Shown here piece by piece: positions 33,580 to 58,366 of a stretch of DNA of 64,000 nucleotides; the stretch's first letter is position 1, and every line of letters starts with the position of its first letter. Origin of the DNA: Picocystis sp. L7. Its lineage: Eukaryota; Chlorophyta; Picocystophyceae; Picocystales; Picocystaceae. Location: assembly GCA_020975725.1 (NCBI GenBank), contig QXJR01000007.1, positions 744,001 through 808,000 on the forward strand, given 5' to 3'. Position numbers and translations under genes: made by a program. The notes beneath the pieces are model-generated. The model had not been told where the DNA came from. It did not search any database and saw only the letters and a program-made list of their open reading frames with translations.

Positions 33580-35115
33580 TCATGCTTCCGCCAGGGCCTT
33601 CTTCGCGTACTTGTTCCACTGCTTGGCGGTGGAAAAATCGGAAATCTTCATGCCGTACGCCAATCCTCGGATCAATTGGACCACACGCATCACGAAAAAC
33701 ATGTCCGATGGAAACTTGGTGATCGCGTTCTTCTTGATTTCGCTCGATTCCGAGAAGGGGCTTATGACCCCTCGTGTGTCGAACATGTTGCGCGCCACAC
33801 GTGCTTTCAAACGAGACATGCCCTCCTTCTCGAAGACAACCCCCATGGACTCCATGTCCGCGGCAATGGTCTCGTAATCTCTGGAGTTCATCGACACCAC
33901 CAGCTTGGCAAACGCCTTGCGCTCCTCCGGGGTCAGCTGCTTGGATTGTCCGTAGTCAAGCAGCGCCACCTGCGCTCCTTTCCTCACCAAGATATTACCC
34001 GGGTGAGCATCGGCTTGGAAGAGTCCGGTCTCCAAGATCTGCTTCCCGTAGGCCTCGCAGATGTTAGACAAGATCCTCCTCTTGGCGATCTGCCTCTGGC
34101 GCCGGGACACGTTCGCTAGCTTGTCCTTCATCTCGTCCAACCTGCACCCGTCGACGAAGTCCATCACCAGTACCCGGCGTGAAGTGAGCCCCTCGACGCT
34201 GTGAGGTACGGTGACTTGCTTTCGGATTCCCCTCAGGTTGTTGTGTATCTGATCCATGATCCTGGCCTCCCTCTCGAAATCGAATTCCAGCTTGATCTGC
34301 TTGTGGAGCTCGTCTACCGCGGAGACCAGATCGAAGTTTATTTCCCTCTGGCTCAAGAACTTGGCCAGCTTGCGCAGGTTGGCAAGGTCTTGAAGCATTT
34401 TGCCCTCCGCAGAAGGATACTGCACCTTGACCGCCACGGTTTGTCCACCTTTTCTTGCCTTGCGCTTCCCATGCGGTCGGACCGCCACATTCAGCACCTG
34501 TCCTCCCCGAAGGACTTCTGGGTCCACTCCTGGATTCATGTGGACAAGTTCCTTCATGCTCATGTGGTGGCGCTTGGCAATGCTGAATCCTGTATCACCC
34601 TTGCGCACTTGGTACGTCCGGCACTCTGGTTGCGCTCGCAGCTTGGCTTTGTGCACTTGGGCAAGTGATGCAGAGCCCAAGGGATGTTCAAGATCGATCC
34701 ATTCAAACATGTCTTCCAAGGCCTTCCCTTTTCCCACCTCTTCTTCTATGACTTTCCTGGTCTCTTGTGCTCCCATGGGTGGAACACGATCCTGCAGCTG
34801 TCGCAGCTCTTCACACACGGGTTTGGGCACGAAATCCGGCCTGGATCCCAGAAACTGTCCCACTTTGACGTAGAAACCACGTAGATCTATGCACAACTGG
34901 TACATGTCGGCACCAGCACGTCGATGGTGTCGTTCCCAGTCCTCCAGATGGAGCTCTTGGGCTCTGGGCTGCGACTTGCGCATCCCATCCAACACCGCCA
35001 TGCGCGCCTGTTGGACCTTGTAACCCAAGTAGATCCCTCCGGCCCTCCTCCAGAACTCCAAGGTGCGCCACAAACGCTCCGGAAGATCCCTCCTCGCGTC
35101 CTCGGAGGTCGCCAT
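33580..35115 (-). CDS. ABC1/UbiB atypical kinase with a LysM domain inserted in the kinase core
   Basis: ABC1 kinases act in plastids and mitochondria on prenylquinone metabolism. In the 511-residue frame the family markers are in order: KVGQ (84-87), the Ala-loop GSASLAQVHKA (147-157), the catalytic Lys in VAVKVQYP (Lys230), the ExD-type helix ELHKQIKLEFDFE (269-281), the HPGN loop (371-374, after Asp369) and DYG (387-389, in place of DFG). Between the Ala-loop and VAVK lies a foreign block, residues about 166-212: TYQVRKGDTGFSIAKRHHMS, MKELVHMNPGV and GGQVLNV. That is a full LysM domain, normally a binder of GlcNAc glycans. It splits the N-lobe beta-hairpin where short loops are normal. The start is the ATG at 35115; the frame continues to 35613 without similarity. 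No clear transit peptide. Confidence 0.93.
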   Translation of the reverse strand: MATSEDARRDLPERLWRTLEFWRRAGGIYLGYKVQQARMAVLDGMRKSQPRAQELHLEDWERHHRRAGADMYQLCIDLRGFYVKVGQFLGSRPDFVPKPVCEELRQLQDRVPPMGAQETRKVIEEEVGKGKALEDMFEWIDLEHPLGSASLAQVHKAKLRAQPECRTYQVRKGDTGFSIAKRHHMSMKELVHMNPGVDPEVLRGGQVLNVAVRPHGKRKARKGGQTVAVKVQYPSAEGKMLQDLANLRKLAKFLSQREINFDLVSAVDELHKQIKLEFDFEREARIMDQIHNNLRGIRKQVTVPHSVEGLTSRRVLVMDFVDGCRLDEMKDKLANVSRRQRQIAKRRILSNICEAYGKQILETGLFQADAHPGNILVRKGAQVALLDYGQSKQLTPEERKAFAKLVVSMNSRDYETIAADMESMGVVFEKEGMSRLKARVARNMFDTRGVISPFSESSEIKKNAITKFPSDMFFVMRVVQLIRGLAYGMKISDFSTAKQWNKYAKKALAEA

Positions 35116-35825
35116 CGCGGTCCGAAGTGCGCCGCCGACGCCTATTGCGGAATCGACGAGTGGACTCGACGTACCTCTCTCACCTGGTCCACACCCTCCA
35201 CACCCAATGTGAAGGAGGTGGTCGTGGAGATCCAAATCAACAAGAAGGGAGTGGAACTTCCTCCACGCCAATGGCAGGCTTGGCCATGGAGGAGACCAAC
35301 GAGAGGGGTGGCCTTGGAAAACAAAGATACGGTTGGGTTTCGCCCACCGAGGCGAGGTGCCGTCATCGCGACTAGAATTCAACACCGGGAGATCCGTCCC
35401 TCCACCAAACGAGGTGGGATACTCACGCGTGCAACTCTGCAGGCAGAACCGTGGCGAATCCGATCCAAAAAAGACAAGACACGGAGGGGTCAGGAGAGGT
35501 CCCTGCAGAGGCTTCCAATCCAGGCGATTCGATGCCAAGGATTCTTCACAAGAGGGAGCAGCTTCCCTACCAACCACGGAGCCAAGGAACAAGAATCTTG
35601 CTCCCATGGACATCCGTTTCTACGAAACCAGAACGTCTCTATATCCCTCTCGGCATTGCAGCAACAGGTCGGATGGATCCTTCCTCTGTAAACGGGTGCG
35701 TGCAGATGCGTGGGCTTGTGAAAGGCTACTGTGAAGCAAGGAATCCATCGGTTTCCAGCCAAGCGGTGGGCAGTCGTCCCACCATGTCCTGCTTCAGAGG
35801 GGCAAGGTTGTGTGCAGCGGAAGGG
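35116..35825. other. Intergenic, upstream of the ABC1 kinase
   Basis: About 710 bases between two minus-strand genes. The kinase frame stays open to 35613 but the translation is composition-biased and unlike the family. No other gene seen. Confidence 0.45.
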
Positions 35826-55792: not shown

Positions 55793-57370
55793 TCAGGAAT
55801 CAGGGAGGACGACACGCTTGACATCCGCCCCCAGGAGACGAAGTTTCTCGTCCAACCTCTCATAACCTCTGTCCATGTGATGTAGACCTTCAATCGTTGT
55901 TGTTCCCTCTGCAGCAAGCCCCGCTAGGAGCAGTGCTGCCCCGGCACGCAAGTCCGATGCCTTCACGTGCGTACCCCATAAAGATAATGCACCAACATCC
56001 CTACGTCCCGTGACTTCGATCACAGCAGCCTGCCGCTCCAACATGGCCCCCGGATCGTGATGACCCCCGTCCACGACTGCATGACTACCGGATAACTTAA
56101 TGTGTGCTCCAAGACGCTGCAACTCTTGCACGTGCTTCATACGGTTCTCGAACACCGTCTCTCTGACCACGCTGGTCCCATTGGACTGCGTGAGCAGCGC
56201 CATGAACTGCGGCTGCATGTCCGTGGGAAACCCTGGAAACGGCATGGTGGTGATGTCCGCCGGCCGAAGGACCTCTGCAGGCGTCAGCCTCACACAATCC
56301 GGGCCCTCCAAGCTCACCTTGCATCCAATGCTATGCAGCTTCGCAATGACCGCCGTGAGGTGTCGAGGGATGACAGGAGAGAGGGTGATCGTGGAGTGCG
56401 TGATGGCACCAGCCACTAGGAAGGTGCCCGCTTCGATGCGGTCTGGAATGACCGCGAATTCGGTCTCATGCAACTTCTTCACGCCGTTGATGGTGATGCA
56501 ATTCGTCCCTGCACCGCGGACGCAGGCCCCCATGGACACCAGATAGTTGGCGAGATCCACCACTTCGGGTTCTTGCGCCACGTTTTCTATGGTGGTTTCT
56601 CCTTCCGCTAGTGCAGCAGCCATCATGAGCGTTTCGGTGGCTCCAACGCTGGGATAATCCATGTAAATCTTGGCGCCCACGAGTCCCCTAGTGGTTGCGT
56701 GTACGCACCCGTGTTTGATTTCGATGTGAGCGCCGAGGGCCTCGAGGCCTCGGACGTGAAGGTCCACGGGCCTGGCTCCAATGTCGCATCCTCCTGGGAG
56801 GGGCACGACCGCCTCTTTCAGCCTCGCCAGCAGTGGTCCGAGCACGAAGAAGGAAGCACGGAGCGATCTCACGGCGTCTTCGGCAGGCGCAGGGTTGTGG
56901 ATGCGGCTGGCGTCTACGGTGAGGGAAGCACCCCCTCCCGTCCTCCTGTCGTCGATTTCGACATCCACCTTGGCTCCGATGGATTCCAGGACGTCGCACA
57001 TCCTCTTTATGTCTCGCAGCTCCGGCACCATGCGCAGCACGGACGTGGTACTGCACAGCAGCGTCCCGGCCAGCACGGCCAGCGCGGAGTTTTTGGCCCC
57101 GGAGATTCGCGCGTGTCCTTGGAGGACGGACCCTCCGCGCACCTCGAGTGCTTCTTTCGGCCTCTGATTCCTGGCCACGTGCGTGGGACGCAGCAAGGGG
57201 CTGTTCGAGCTCCTGTTCGTTTGCGTCGATGCGTGCGTGGTCCTTGCACGTGGTTGGGAGGTGGGCGAAGGGGTGCCTGCCAGTTCGCACCGCACGCGTG
57301 CGATCCTTCCCTTGGCATGCGGTCCCGCGGCTCTCCCCTCCCACGCCATCATGGCCCGTCCGAAGGGCAT
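55793..57370 (-). CDS. murA: MurA, UDP-GlcNAc 1-carboxyvinyltransferase, with N-terminal extension
   Basis: First committed enzyme of peptidoglycan precursor synthesis; moves enolpyruvate from PEP to UDP-GlcNAc. The 525-residue product has an N-terminal extension of about 75 residues rich in Arg, Ala, Ser and Thr, suited to a chloroplast transit peptide, and then an unbroken MurA: SGAKNSALAVLAGTLLCS (Lys93-Asn94, substrate site), AVRSLRASFFVLGPLLARLK, LPGGCDIGARPVDLH (the catalytic Cys195 retained, equivalent to E. coli Cys115), YPSVGATETLMMAAALAEGE, FPGFPTDMQPQFMALLTQSN and GHHDPGAMLERQA. The last blocks show GADVKR near the C-terminus. In moss and some algae, such genes make or maintain plastid peptidoglycan used in plastid division. 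The start is the ATG at 57370; a second Met lies seven residues in. Single exon. Confidence 0.95.
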   Translation of the reverse strand: MPFGRAMMAWEGRAAGPHAKGRIARVRCELAGTPSPTSQPRARTTHASTQTNRSSNSPLLRPTHVARNQRPKEALEVRGGSVLQGHARISGAKNSALAVLAGTLLCSTTSVLRMVPELRDIKRMCDVLESIGAKVDVEIDDRRTGGGASLTVDASRIHNPAPAEDAVRSLRASFFVLGPLLARLKEAVVPLPGGCDIGARPVDLHVRGLEALGAHIEIKHGCVHATTRGLVGAKIYMDYPSVGATETLMMAAALAEGETTIENVAQEPEVVDLANYLVSMGACVRGAGTNCITINGVKKLHETEFAVIPDRIEAGTFLVAGAITHSTITLSPVIPRHLTAVIAKLHSIGCKVSLEGPDCVRLTPAEVLRPADITTMPFPGFPTDMQPQFMALLTQSNGTSVVRETVFENRMKHVQELQRLGAHIKLSGSHAVVDGGHHDPGAMLERQAAVIEVTGRRDVGALSLWGTHVKASDLRAGAALLLAGLAAEGTTTIEGLHHMDRGYERLDEKLRLLGADVKRVVLPDS

Positions 57371-58366
57371 GGAAGCGCGTGCACGTGATGTGCGCGTTCG
57401 CACACCACTGGGTGCGGTGGAGACGAAGCCCAGGGAAGGATGGGCTCCACCCACGAAACGGGGAGGGAGAACGGACCCCCTTTTCGAAAACGAGGGAGGA
57501 TGGAGGGGCGCGAACGGAAGGGGGGGACGGAAGACCCCCCACCCGAGGATGGGTGGGTGAGGTTCAACGGTAGGGTGGGAGTCCCTCGGAAGGGGAGAAG
57601 CAGGAAGGTCGAAGCCAACCCGAAGGGAAAGGGAAAGGGAAAGGGAAAGGGGACGGGTTCGATCGAATGGGACAGGTCCTTGGGACAACCAAGGACCCAC
57701 GACCCCGAGATCGAAACGGAACGGATCGGTTTGGCGGGAACAATCCGACCCAGGATCGTGAGCCCTCCCCGGTTCCATCGATCGGACACCCAACGAAAGG
57801 AGACCGGACGACCGATCCCCCCCAACTCCCTTCGACCTTGGAACCCATCGAAAACCTAGGAGATCCACCACGGGAAAAGGGAGGGACAAATGGGCGGTGC
57901 AGAATCGATCCCGGAAAGGGAAGGAGGGGACGTCCACGGTCGCATCGTCGTCCACACGATCGTCATCGGGAGGGATGAACCCGGACGGATGTCGACGTGC
58001 AAGGATGCGAGGGCAACGACAGGACCCGGTGCGTCCACCCATCCCCCCCCCCGCTCTCATGAGAGGATGGGAACTCCCCGTGGAACGCAGAAACGCATCG
58101 GAACGATCGACCACAGAAACTCCCCGATCGCAGCATCAACAAGGCCACGAGAAAAAGACGAGCCAACGTCGCGTCGTTGGCAAGCCATCGGAGCCCGTTC
58201 GGTCGTTCCCAAATGGCTTGCCCTTCCTTCCTCAACACGTGTGACCAAGCTCAATCGCTCGTGGTCCACGCTCCATCCCAGCCACGGGCGACCTCAGCAA
58301 ATGCAACCTCCGATCTTGGTGTCTTTTTTCCGGGCCTTCCTTCGAACGACGCGTAAGGAAACGCAA
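57371..58366. promoter_or_regulatory. Upstream region of MurA, GC-rich and stop-poor
   Basis: About 1 kb. The MurA frame stays open to 58114 without ATG-led similarity, and other frames are open on both strands. Holds a TTTCGAAA palindrome (57482-57489) and a GGGAAA tetramer repeat (57625-57650). Probably the MurA promoter and leader. Confidence 0.4.
57625..57650 (+). repeat. GGGAAA hexanucleotide repeat
   Basis: Four to five copies of GGGAAA in the MurA upstream region. Confidence 0.85.

Follow-up and report, generated by a model that had tools for sequence, protein, structure and literature searches.

Plant LysM receptor kinases (LYK/CERK1) carry LysM domains and a kinase in one protein, with the LysMs outside the cell and followed by a membrane span and a kinase of the ordinary kind. 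Kinases of the ABC1/ADCK/UbiB family (COQ8A/ADCK3, MSMEG_1954, Rv3197) share one motif order and one fold, and in the three alignments to solved ABC1 chains that we examined, the Ala-loop strand runs directly to the strand of the catalytic Lys. Here, we describe a gene in a stretch of 64,000 nucleotides of Picocystis sp. L7 (contig QXJR01000007.1, positions 744,001 to 808,000; the whole stretch is referred to as the window). Its product (the query) is like the plant receptors in joining LysM and kinase, and like the ABC1 kinases in motif order and fold. However, its single LysM is nested within the lobe of an atypical kinase, and between the two strands that are contiguous in the solved ABC1 chains it has about 60 residues more. 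A further green-lineage LysM protein of unassigned task is PPASP, which in the accessible part of its description (PMC4815162) has a predicted membrane span and a LysM, with no kinase mentioned there, and which tracks peptidoglycan genes in streptophytes, whereas the LysM-kinase family does not. The gene and its parts are as follows.

33580..35115, minus strand: ABC1 kinase gene with nested LysM, 511 amino acids (coding 33583-35115, stop codon 33580-33582)
34855..34866, minus strand: KVGQ (KxGQ motif), residues 84-87, read from the sequence; Q87 conserved in at least 90%
34636..34800, minus strand: ABC1 profile positions 1-52, ending in the Ala-loop strand GSASLAQVH; six-frame genome search, C5:778636-778800 (window offset 744000)
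34450..34635, minus strand: whole insert, residues 161-222 (62 amino acids; streptophyte rows of the alignment have 4 there)
34486..34614, minus strand: LysM domain PF01476, residues 168-210; Pfam, six-frame search and predicted model
33859..34452, minus strand: ABC1 profile positions 52-242; six-frame genome search
34426..34428, minus strand: catalytic-type Lys230 in VAVKVQ, strand 226-232; alignment and predicted model
34279..34287, minus strand: EFD (ExD motif), residues 277-279, read from the sequence; E277, F278 and D279 each conserved in at least 90%
33994..34005, minus strand: HPGN, residues 371-374; alignment
33949..33957, minus strand: DYG, residues 387-389; alignment

A preliminary description of this DNA had placed a LysM inside the N-lobe of an ABC1 kinase, and had named a domain search and a structure prediction of the whole protein as checks; both bear the claim out. 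The Pfam LysM profile (PF01476) matched residues 168-210 over profile positions 1-42 of 43 (8.6e-9, 35.6 bits, cut-off 20.9), and the Pfam ABC1 profile (PF03109) matched the protein in two stretches (2.3e-58, 197.7 bits, cut-off 22.9). In six-frame profile searches that covered the genome (20.5 Mb, 30 contigs), the ABC1 profile stopped at position 52 and restarted at 52, with the LysM filling the gap between the Ala-loop strand and the catalytic-Lys strand of the N-lobe. Among the frames examined, it was the only one of nine LysM matches in the genome to lie within an ABC1 frame. Searches of PDB sequences gave the same division: the ABC1 chains 5yjz, 7cy2 and 4ped matched both flanks of the block, and LysM chains aligned to the block itself. 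With the LysM alone, the chitinase/lysozyme LysM 5k2l had the top single-domain score (31.5 bits) among five alignments examined, and 4uz2 had the best whole-chain E-value. In the AlphaFold model of the whole protein, the block has the beta-alpha-alpha-beta fold of a LysM (strand 164-169, helices 176-182 and 187-193, strand 207-212), flanked by kinase strands 152-159 and 226-232. The predicted local distance difference test (pLDDT) score is about 90 for the LysM block (86-97 over residues 161-210, and 60 over residues 211-220). The LysM piece folded alone, without an alignment, gave a poor model with helices but no strands (pLDDT 58.6). Clearly, a complete LysM is nested in an N-lobe loop of an ABC1 kinase.

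The kinase itself appeared regular. As the preliminary description had it, KVGQ, the Ala-loop (residues 147-155), Lys230, ExD, HPGN and DYG follow each other in the normal order, and they are mostly conserved in the alignment, the motif names being those that we take to be in use for ABC1 kinases. The predicted fold is like that of COQ8A, and the structure-search listings (Foldseek, VIA) for the whole model were full of kinases. The score with the UbiB model TIGR01982 (203.9 bits) did not reach the equivalog cut-off of 487.55, and thus we call the protein ABC1-like and do not file it as UbiB. A subfamily name was not found in the literature on AKC2 and ABC1K11/12.

As four in-frame GT-AG pairs in the gene could excise much or all of the LysM block, we considered the possibility of an intron or of an erroneous gene model. 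This is very improbable, because the frame is open throughout, the codon use of the insert is coding-like, and the block is conserved in relatives. The codon bias of the insert (0.077 per codon, compared with 0.114 in the kinase) falls within the range of 0.037-0.192 found for 62-codon pieces from the rest of the gene, and its third-position GC is 0.61 (0.72 in the kinase). The relatives that retain the block include three homologues from other species with records of transcript type, P0093 (Tetraselmis, source mmetsp), P0041 (TRINITY name) and P0089 (GHUV accession), labels that we take to denote transcript-derived sequences. The 511-residue frame starts at ATG 35115. A second in-frame ATG further upstream, at 35613, would add 166 codons, but this stretch has a third-position GC of 0.56 and a weak codon bias (0.023), and it is unlike the near relative P0002 except in the last residues before ATG 35115. 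Because of this weak codon use and lack of conservation, the start at 35613 was rejected, and 35115 is the better one.

To follow the insert among relatives, we scored 7999 candidates, of which 1848 were homologues at E-values up to 0.001, and aligned the best 120 with the query. The resulting 121 rows mix named species with metagenome records, so that all counts are of rows and not of species. A profile of 20 green-algal LysM blocks, built without the query and P0002, detected a LysM in 38/121 rows, and in all of them (38/38) within the insert; these 38 take in the query, its copy P0001 and the 20 profile-building rows, and two extra matches with negative scores were discarded as noise. Pfam alone found a LysM at E-values up to 0.1 in 37/120 rows (20/60 and 17/60). 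The named LysM rows include Ostreobium and Bryopsis, which we take to be ulvophytes, as is presumably Ulva, and Volvox, Pleodorina, Chlamydomonas, Gonium, Dunaliella, Tetradesmus, Trebouxia and Tetraselmis. Several of them (Volvox, Pleodorina, Chlamydomonas, Gonium, Tetradesmus, Tetraselmis) are entered in databases as 'LysM domain-containing protein' and are the same kinase with the LysM at the same point, although their inserts are longer (99-235 residues, compared with 62 in the query) and the Thr of LysM loop 1 is often replaced across the set. When a second search was started from 22 aligned LysM rows, ten further rows (P0121-P0130) were listed, which stand outside the 121-row alignment. 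Thus, the search for the same insert in other algal ABC1 kinases, proposed in the preliminary description, found it in many green algae.

Not all long inserts hold a LysM. An insert of at least 36 residues without a detected LysM was found in 54/121 rows, with Chlorella, Micractinium, Auxenochlorella, Nannochloris, Coccomyxa, Myrmecia and a pedinophyte among them; these rows are perhaps a natural loss series. A short loop of 4-25 residues is present in 28/121 rows, and one row (1/121) is a fragment gapped there. The short-loop rows include 14 streptophyte rows (assigned by name or place in the tree), which have 4 residues at the junction, and four rows that we labelled prasinophyte-like, which have 8-16; one of the latter is named as a Pyramimonas-type MMETSP record and one as Prorocentrum. 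The Prorocentrum minimum row, P0026, groups with the prasinophyte-like rows, and both contamination and transfer are possible. In some algae, short-loop relatives have a TspO domain behind the kinase. A TspO/MBR domain follows the ABC1 domain in P0067, P0069, P0074 and P0121 (Trebouxia, Myrmecia, Coccomyxa), all four of the rows chosen for scanning (4/4) being above the Pfam cut-off, and P0122 is likewise listed with TspO. Such fusions may hint, weakly, at a membrane or tetrapyrrole role.

If the loop merely tolerates insertions, the LysM could be a drifting relic without a task, carried as a passenger. The frequency of long inserts without LysM and the rapid change in the clade of the query would fit this. 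To see how tightly the LysM is kept, we compared identities in 23 pairs, which were chosen by hand and overlap in part. The LysM was more identical than the left linker in 21/23 pairs (lower in 1, tie in 1), and likewise more identical than the right linker in 21/23 (lower in 1, tie in 1). Compared with the C-terminal part of the kinase, it was less identical in 19/23 pairs (higher in 3, tie in 1). As the LysM exceeds each linker in most pairs, it is probably under selection, though less tight than that on the kinase. Moreover, the residues of the LysM fold are kept across distant green algae. We therefore regard a passenger as rather doubtful.

The history of the insert was followed in a tree for which the 121 rows had been thinned by hand to 56 and the insert columns removed. 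The lineage of the query fell outside the main green-algal group (support 81/78), and in the free tree its clade grouped weakly with the short-loop prasinophyte-like rows (support 80/69). On this tree, at least four changes are required for LysM presence, and at least seven for three states (LysM, long and short). However, a tree constrained to hold the lineage of the query and the main group together was not rejected (p 0.53). The placement with short-loop rows would suit independent insertions, in which the lineage of the query and the other green algae each acquired a LysM at the same tolerant loop, as would the shorter insert of the query (62 residues, compared with 86-235 in LysM rows outside its clade). 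The identical insertion point and the constrained tree speak against them. Scores with LysM profiles fall on both sides. With the green-algal kinase-LysM profile, the LysM of the query scored 56.5 bits (45.9 with a general profile of 12 domains, 44.6 with 15 domains), above the seven other scored LysM blocks of the genome (at most 40.8), but 5k2l, with 59.5, scored as well as the query. For that reason, the profiles cannot settle one against two insertions, and this approach was set aside as undecisive. We prefer a single early gain followed by repeated losses; independent insertions, which would be compatible with the role proposed below, seem a minority possibility. That the insert is found at one and the same position in many other green algae makes it look like an old design that has been retained.

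The preliminary description had pointed to a MurA gene in the window and to a kinase that senses glycan in the plastid envelope. The MurA frame, separate from the kinase, was confirmed.

55793..58114, minus strand: MurA frame (TIGR01072, 529.1 bits, cut-off 392.7)

A sensor of peptidoglycan (or chitin) in the plastid envelope, in which the LysM would bind a polymer of N-acetylglucosamine (GlcNAc) and switch the kinase, has several points in its favour. Besides MurA, the genome encodes MurB, five loci of Mur ligase type (some of which may be other ligases of that fold), one PBP transpeptidase and a MurG-like protein in two pieces (145.7 and 89.2 bits, below the cut-off of 250.25), and it is likely able to make peptidoglycan by a complete pathway. 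It also encodes a protein that combines a LysM with a lytic transglycosylase domain, and the best single-domain match of the nested LysM among the five alignments examined, 5k2l, comes from a chitinase/lysozyme. Additionally, according to the accessible text of a 2023 review, Ulva mutabilis likely has a peptidoglycan layer (PMC10784329), and thus at least one ulvophyte keeps peptidoglycan.

Sugar binding by the LysM itself could be judged from known contacts. As far as the accessible accounts go, the loop-1 Thr of a Thermus LysM bonds GlcNAc of chitohexaose, with many contacts made by the main chain (PMC4356369), and a T95R change at that Thr in LysM2 of fungal Ecp6 impairs chitin binding (PMC3700227). 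Loop 1 of the query, GDTGF, retains this residue as Thr175 in the alignment. However, over the 38 LysM rows the position holds T in 12, G in 12, and other residues or a gap in 14. Judged by these residues, GlcNAc binding is doubtful across the whole family, although the LysM of the query, having kept the Thr, could bind GlcNAc chains.

The range of the LysM kinases does not follow the peptidoglycan pathway. In the accessible part of the study by van Baren et al. 2016 (PMC4815162), complete peptidoglycan pathways are reported for some prasinophytes and Selaginella moellendorffii, and few pathway genes for chlorophytes such as C. reinhardtii, V. carteri and Coccomyxa. LysM kinases are present in Volvox africanus, V. 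reticuliferus, C. incerta and C. schloesseri, and in P0117, the row of S. moellendorffii, the loop is 4 residues long and holds no LysM, so that the two distributions mismatch both ways, the comparison for algae being at the level of genera. Few residues precede the first conserved helix (median of 24.5 in 90 rows), and by their length these leaders do not look transit-like. The linkage to MurA was rejected as evidence, as it lies about 21 kb from the kinase with unrelated genes (DHHC, NF-YA, Mog1, TPR/CS and NOB1) between. Taken together, the short leaders, the mismatched range, the loss of the Thr in most rows and the distance of MurA leave the envelope-sensor proposal unsupported, and a plastid peptidoglycan sensor is unlikely.

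On balance, we lean towards an ancient accessory module: from the tip of the N-lobe, at the cytosolic side of a membrane, the LysM would dock the kinase or bind a ligand. The LysM would have been inserted early into an N-lobe loop of one green-lineage ABC1 kinase subfamily, and then retained. The kinase core would fold and bind ATP normally, since the loop between those N-lobe strands points away from the active site of kinases, and the LysM would hang from the tip of the lobe. There, it would place the kinase on a partner, either a protein or a GlcNAc-bearing glycan, and might tune the nucleotide lobe via the strands that it connects. The short leaders, and a family range that departs from that of the peptidoglycan pathway, suggest to us that the kinase acts at the cytosolic face of a membrane, with a partner other than plastid peptidoglycan.

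Several points weigh against this docking role. The LysM can be missing from long inserts, and change within the gene is fast: when the query is paired with P0002 or P0003, LysM identity is 61-68%, compared with 93% for the C-terminal part of the kinase. The borders of the LysM in the identity comparison were set by the profile match, which favours the block. The query may bind glycan through its retained Thr175, and the likely peptidoglycan layer of Ulva mutabilis also counts against our reading. Leader length and acidic residues were the sole guides to location; many leaders also hold Lys or Arg, and in 8/90 rows they exceed 60 residues. The orientation of the loop is general kinase knowledge, and partner, ligand, compartment and effect on catalysis are what we infer.

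A bolder version would make the nested LysM an intracellular ligand gate, in which the tip of the N-lobe binds a lipid-linked sugar or a glycan bearing GlcNAc, and this binding shifts the strands around the catalytic Lys and so sets the ABC1 ATPase. We consider this improbable; if true, green algae would own a one-piece sugar-sensing kinase, unlike the membrane LysM receptor kinases.

The preliminary description had cautioned that the arrangement might be known in algae. It is indeed widespread there, and both domains are already visible in database records, several of which are named for the LysM. A published description of a LysM-bearing ABC1 kinase was not found in literature searches combining LysM with ABC1/AarF/COQ8/ADCK and green algae, in which subscription journals were thinly covered and the broadest search was checked in part. 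LysM is also absent from the text of an eyespot proteome paper retrieved for chloroplast and Chlamydomonas ABC1 kinases. The locus clearly shows a kinase N-lobe with a whole lectin-type domain nested in it, an arrangement that recurs across distant green algae. It gives a handle on an ABC1 subfamily for which a functional study was not found in the literature searched, and the relatives with a long insert lacking LysM offer a contrast for what the LysM adds.

The MurA of the window has a long N-terminal extension. After two near-identical records, its nearest matches, at 63%, bear the record names Mesvir1 and Chlat1, presumably Mesostigma and Chlorokybus. Three other LysM loci of the genome have unlike partners. 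At L009:1498-2721 (minus strand, G000 contig 12), a lytic transglycosylase SLT domain precedes the best-scoring LysM among those listed for the genome, perhaps in a plastid-wall or food-digesting enzyme. At L013:646-1785 (minus strand, G000 contig 10), two LysMs are followed by a weak lysozyme-like match (Destabilase, below cut-off), and L015:241-1665 (plus strand, G000 contig 18) joins an NT-C2 domain to a partial C-terminal LysM match, an odd pair.
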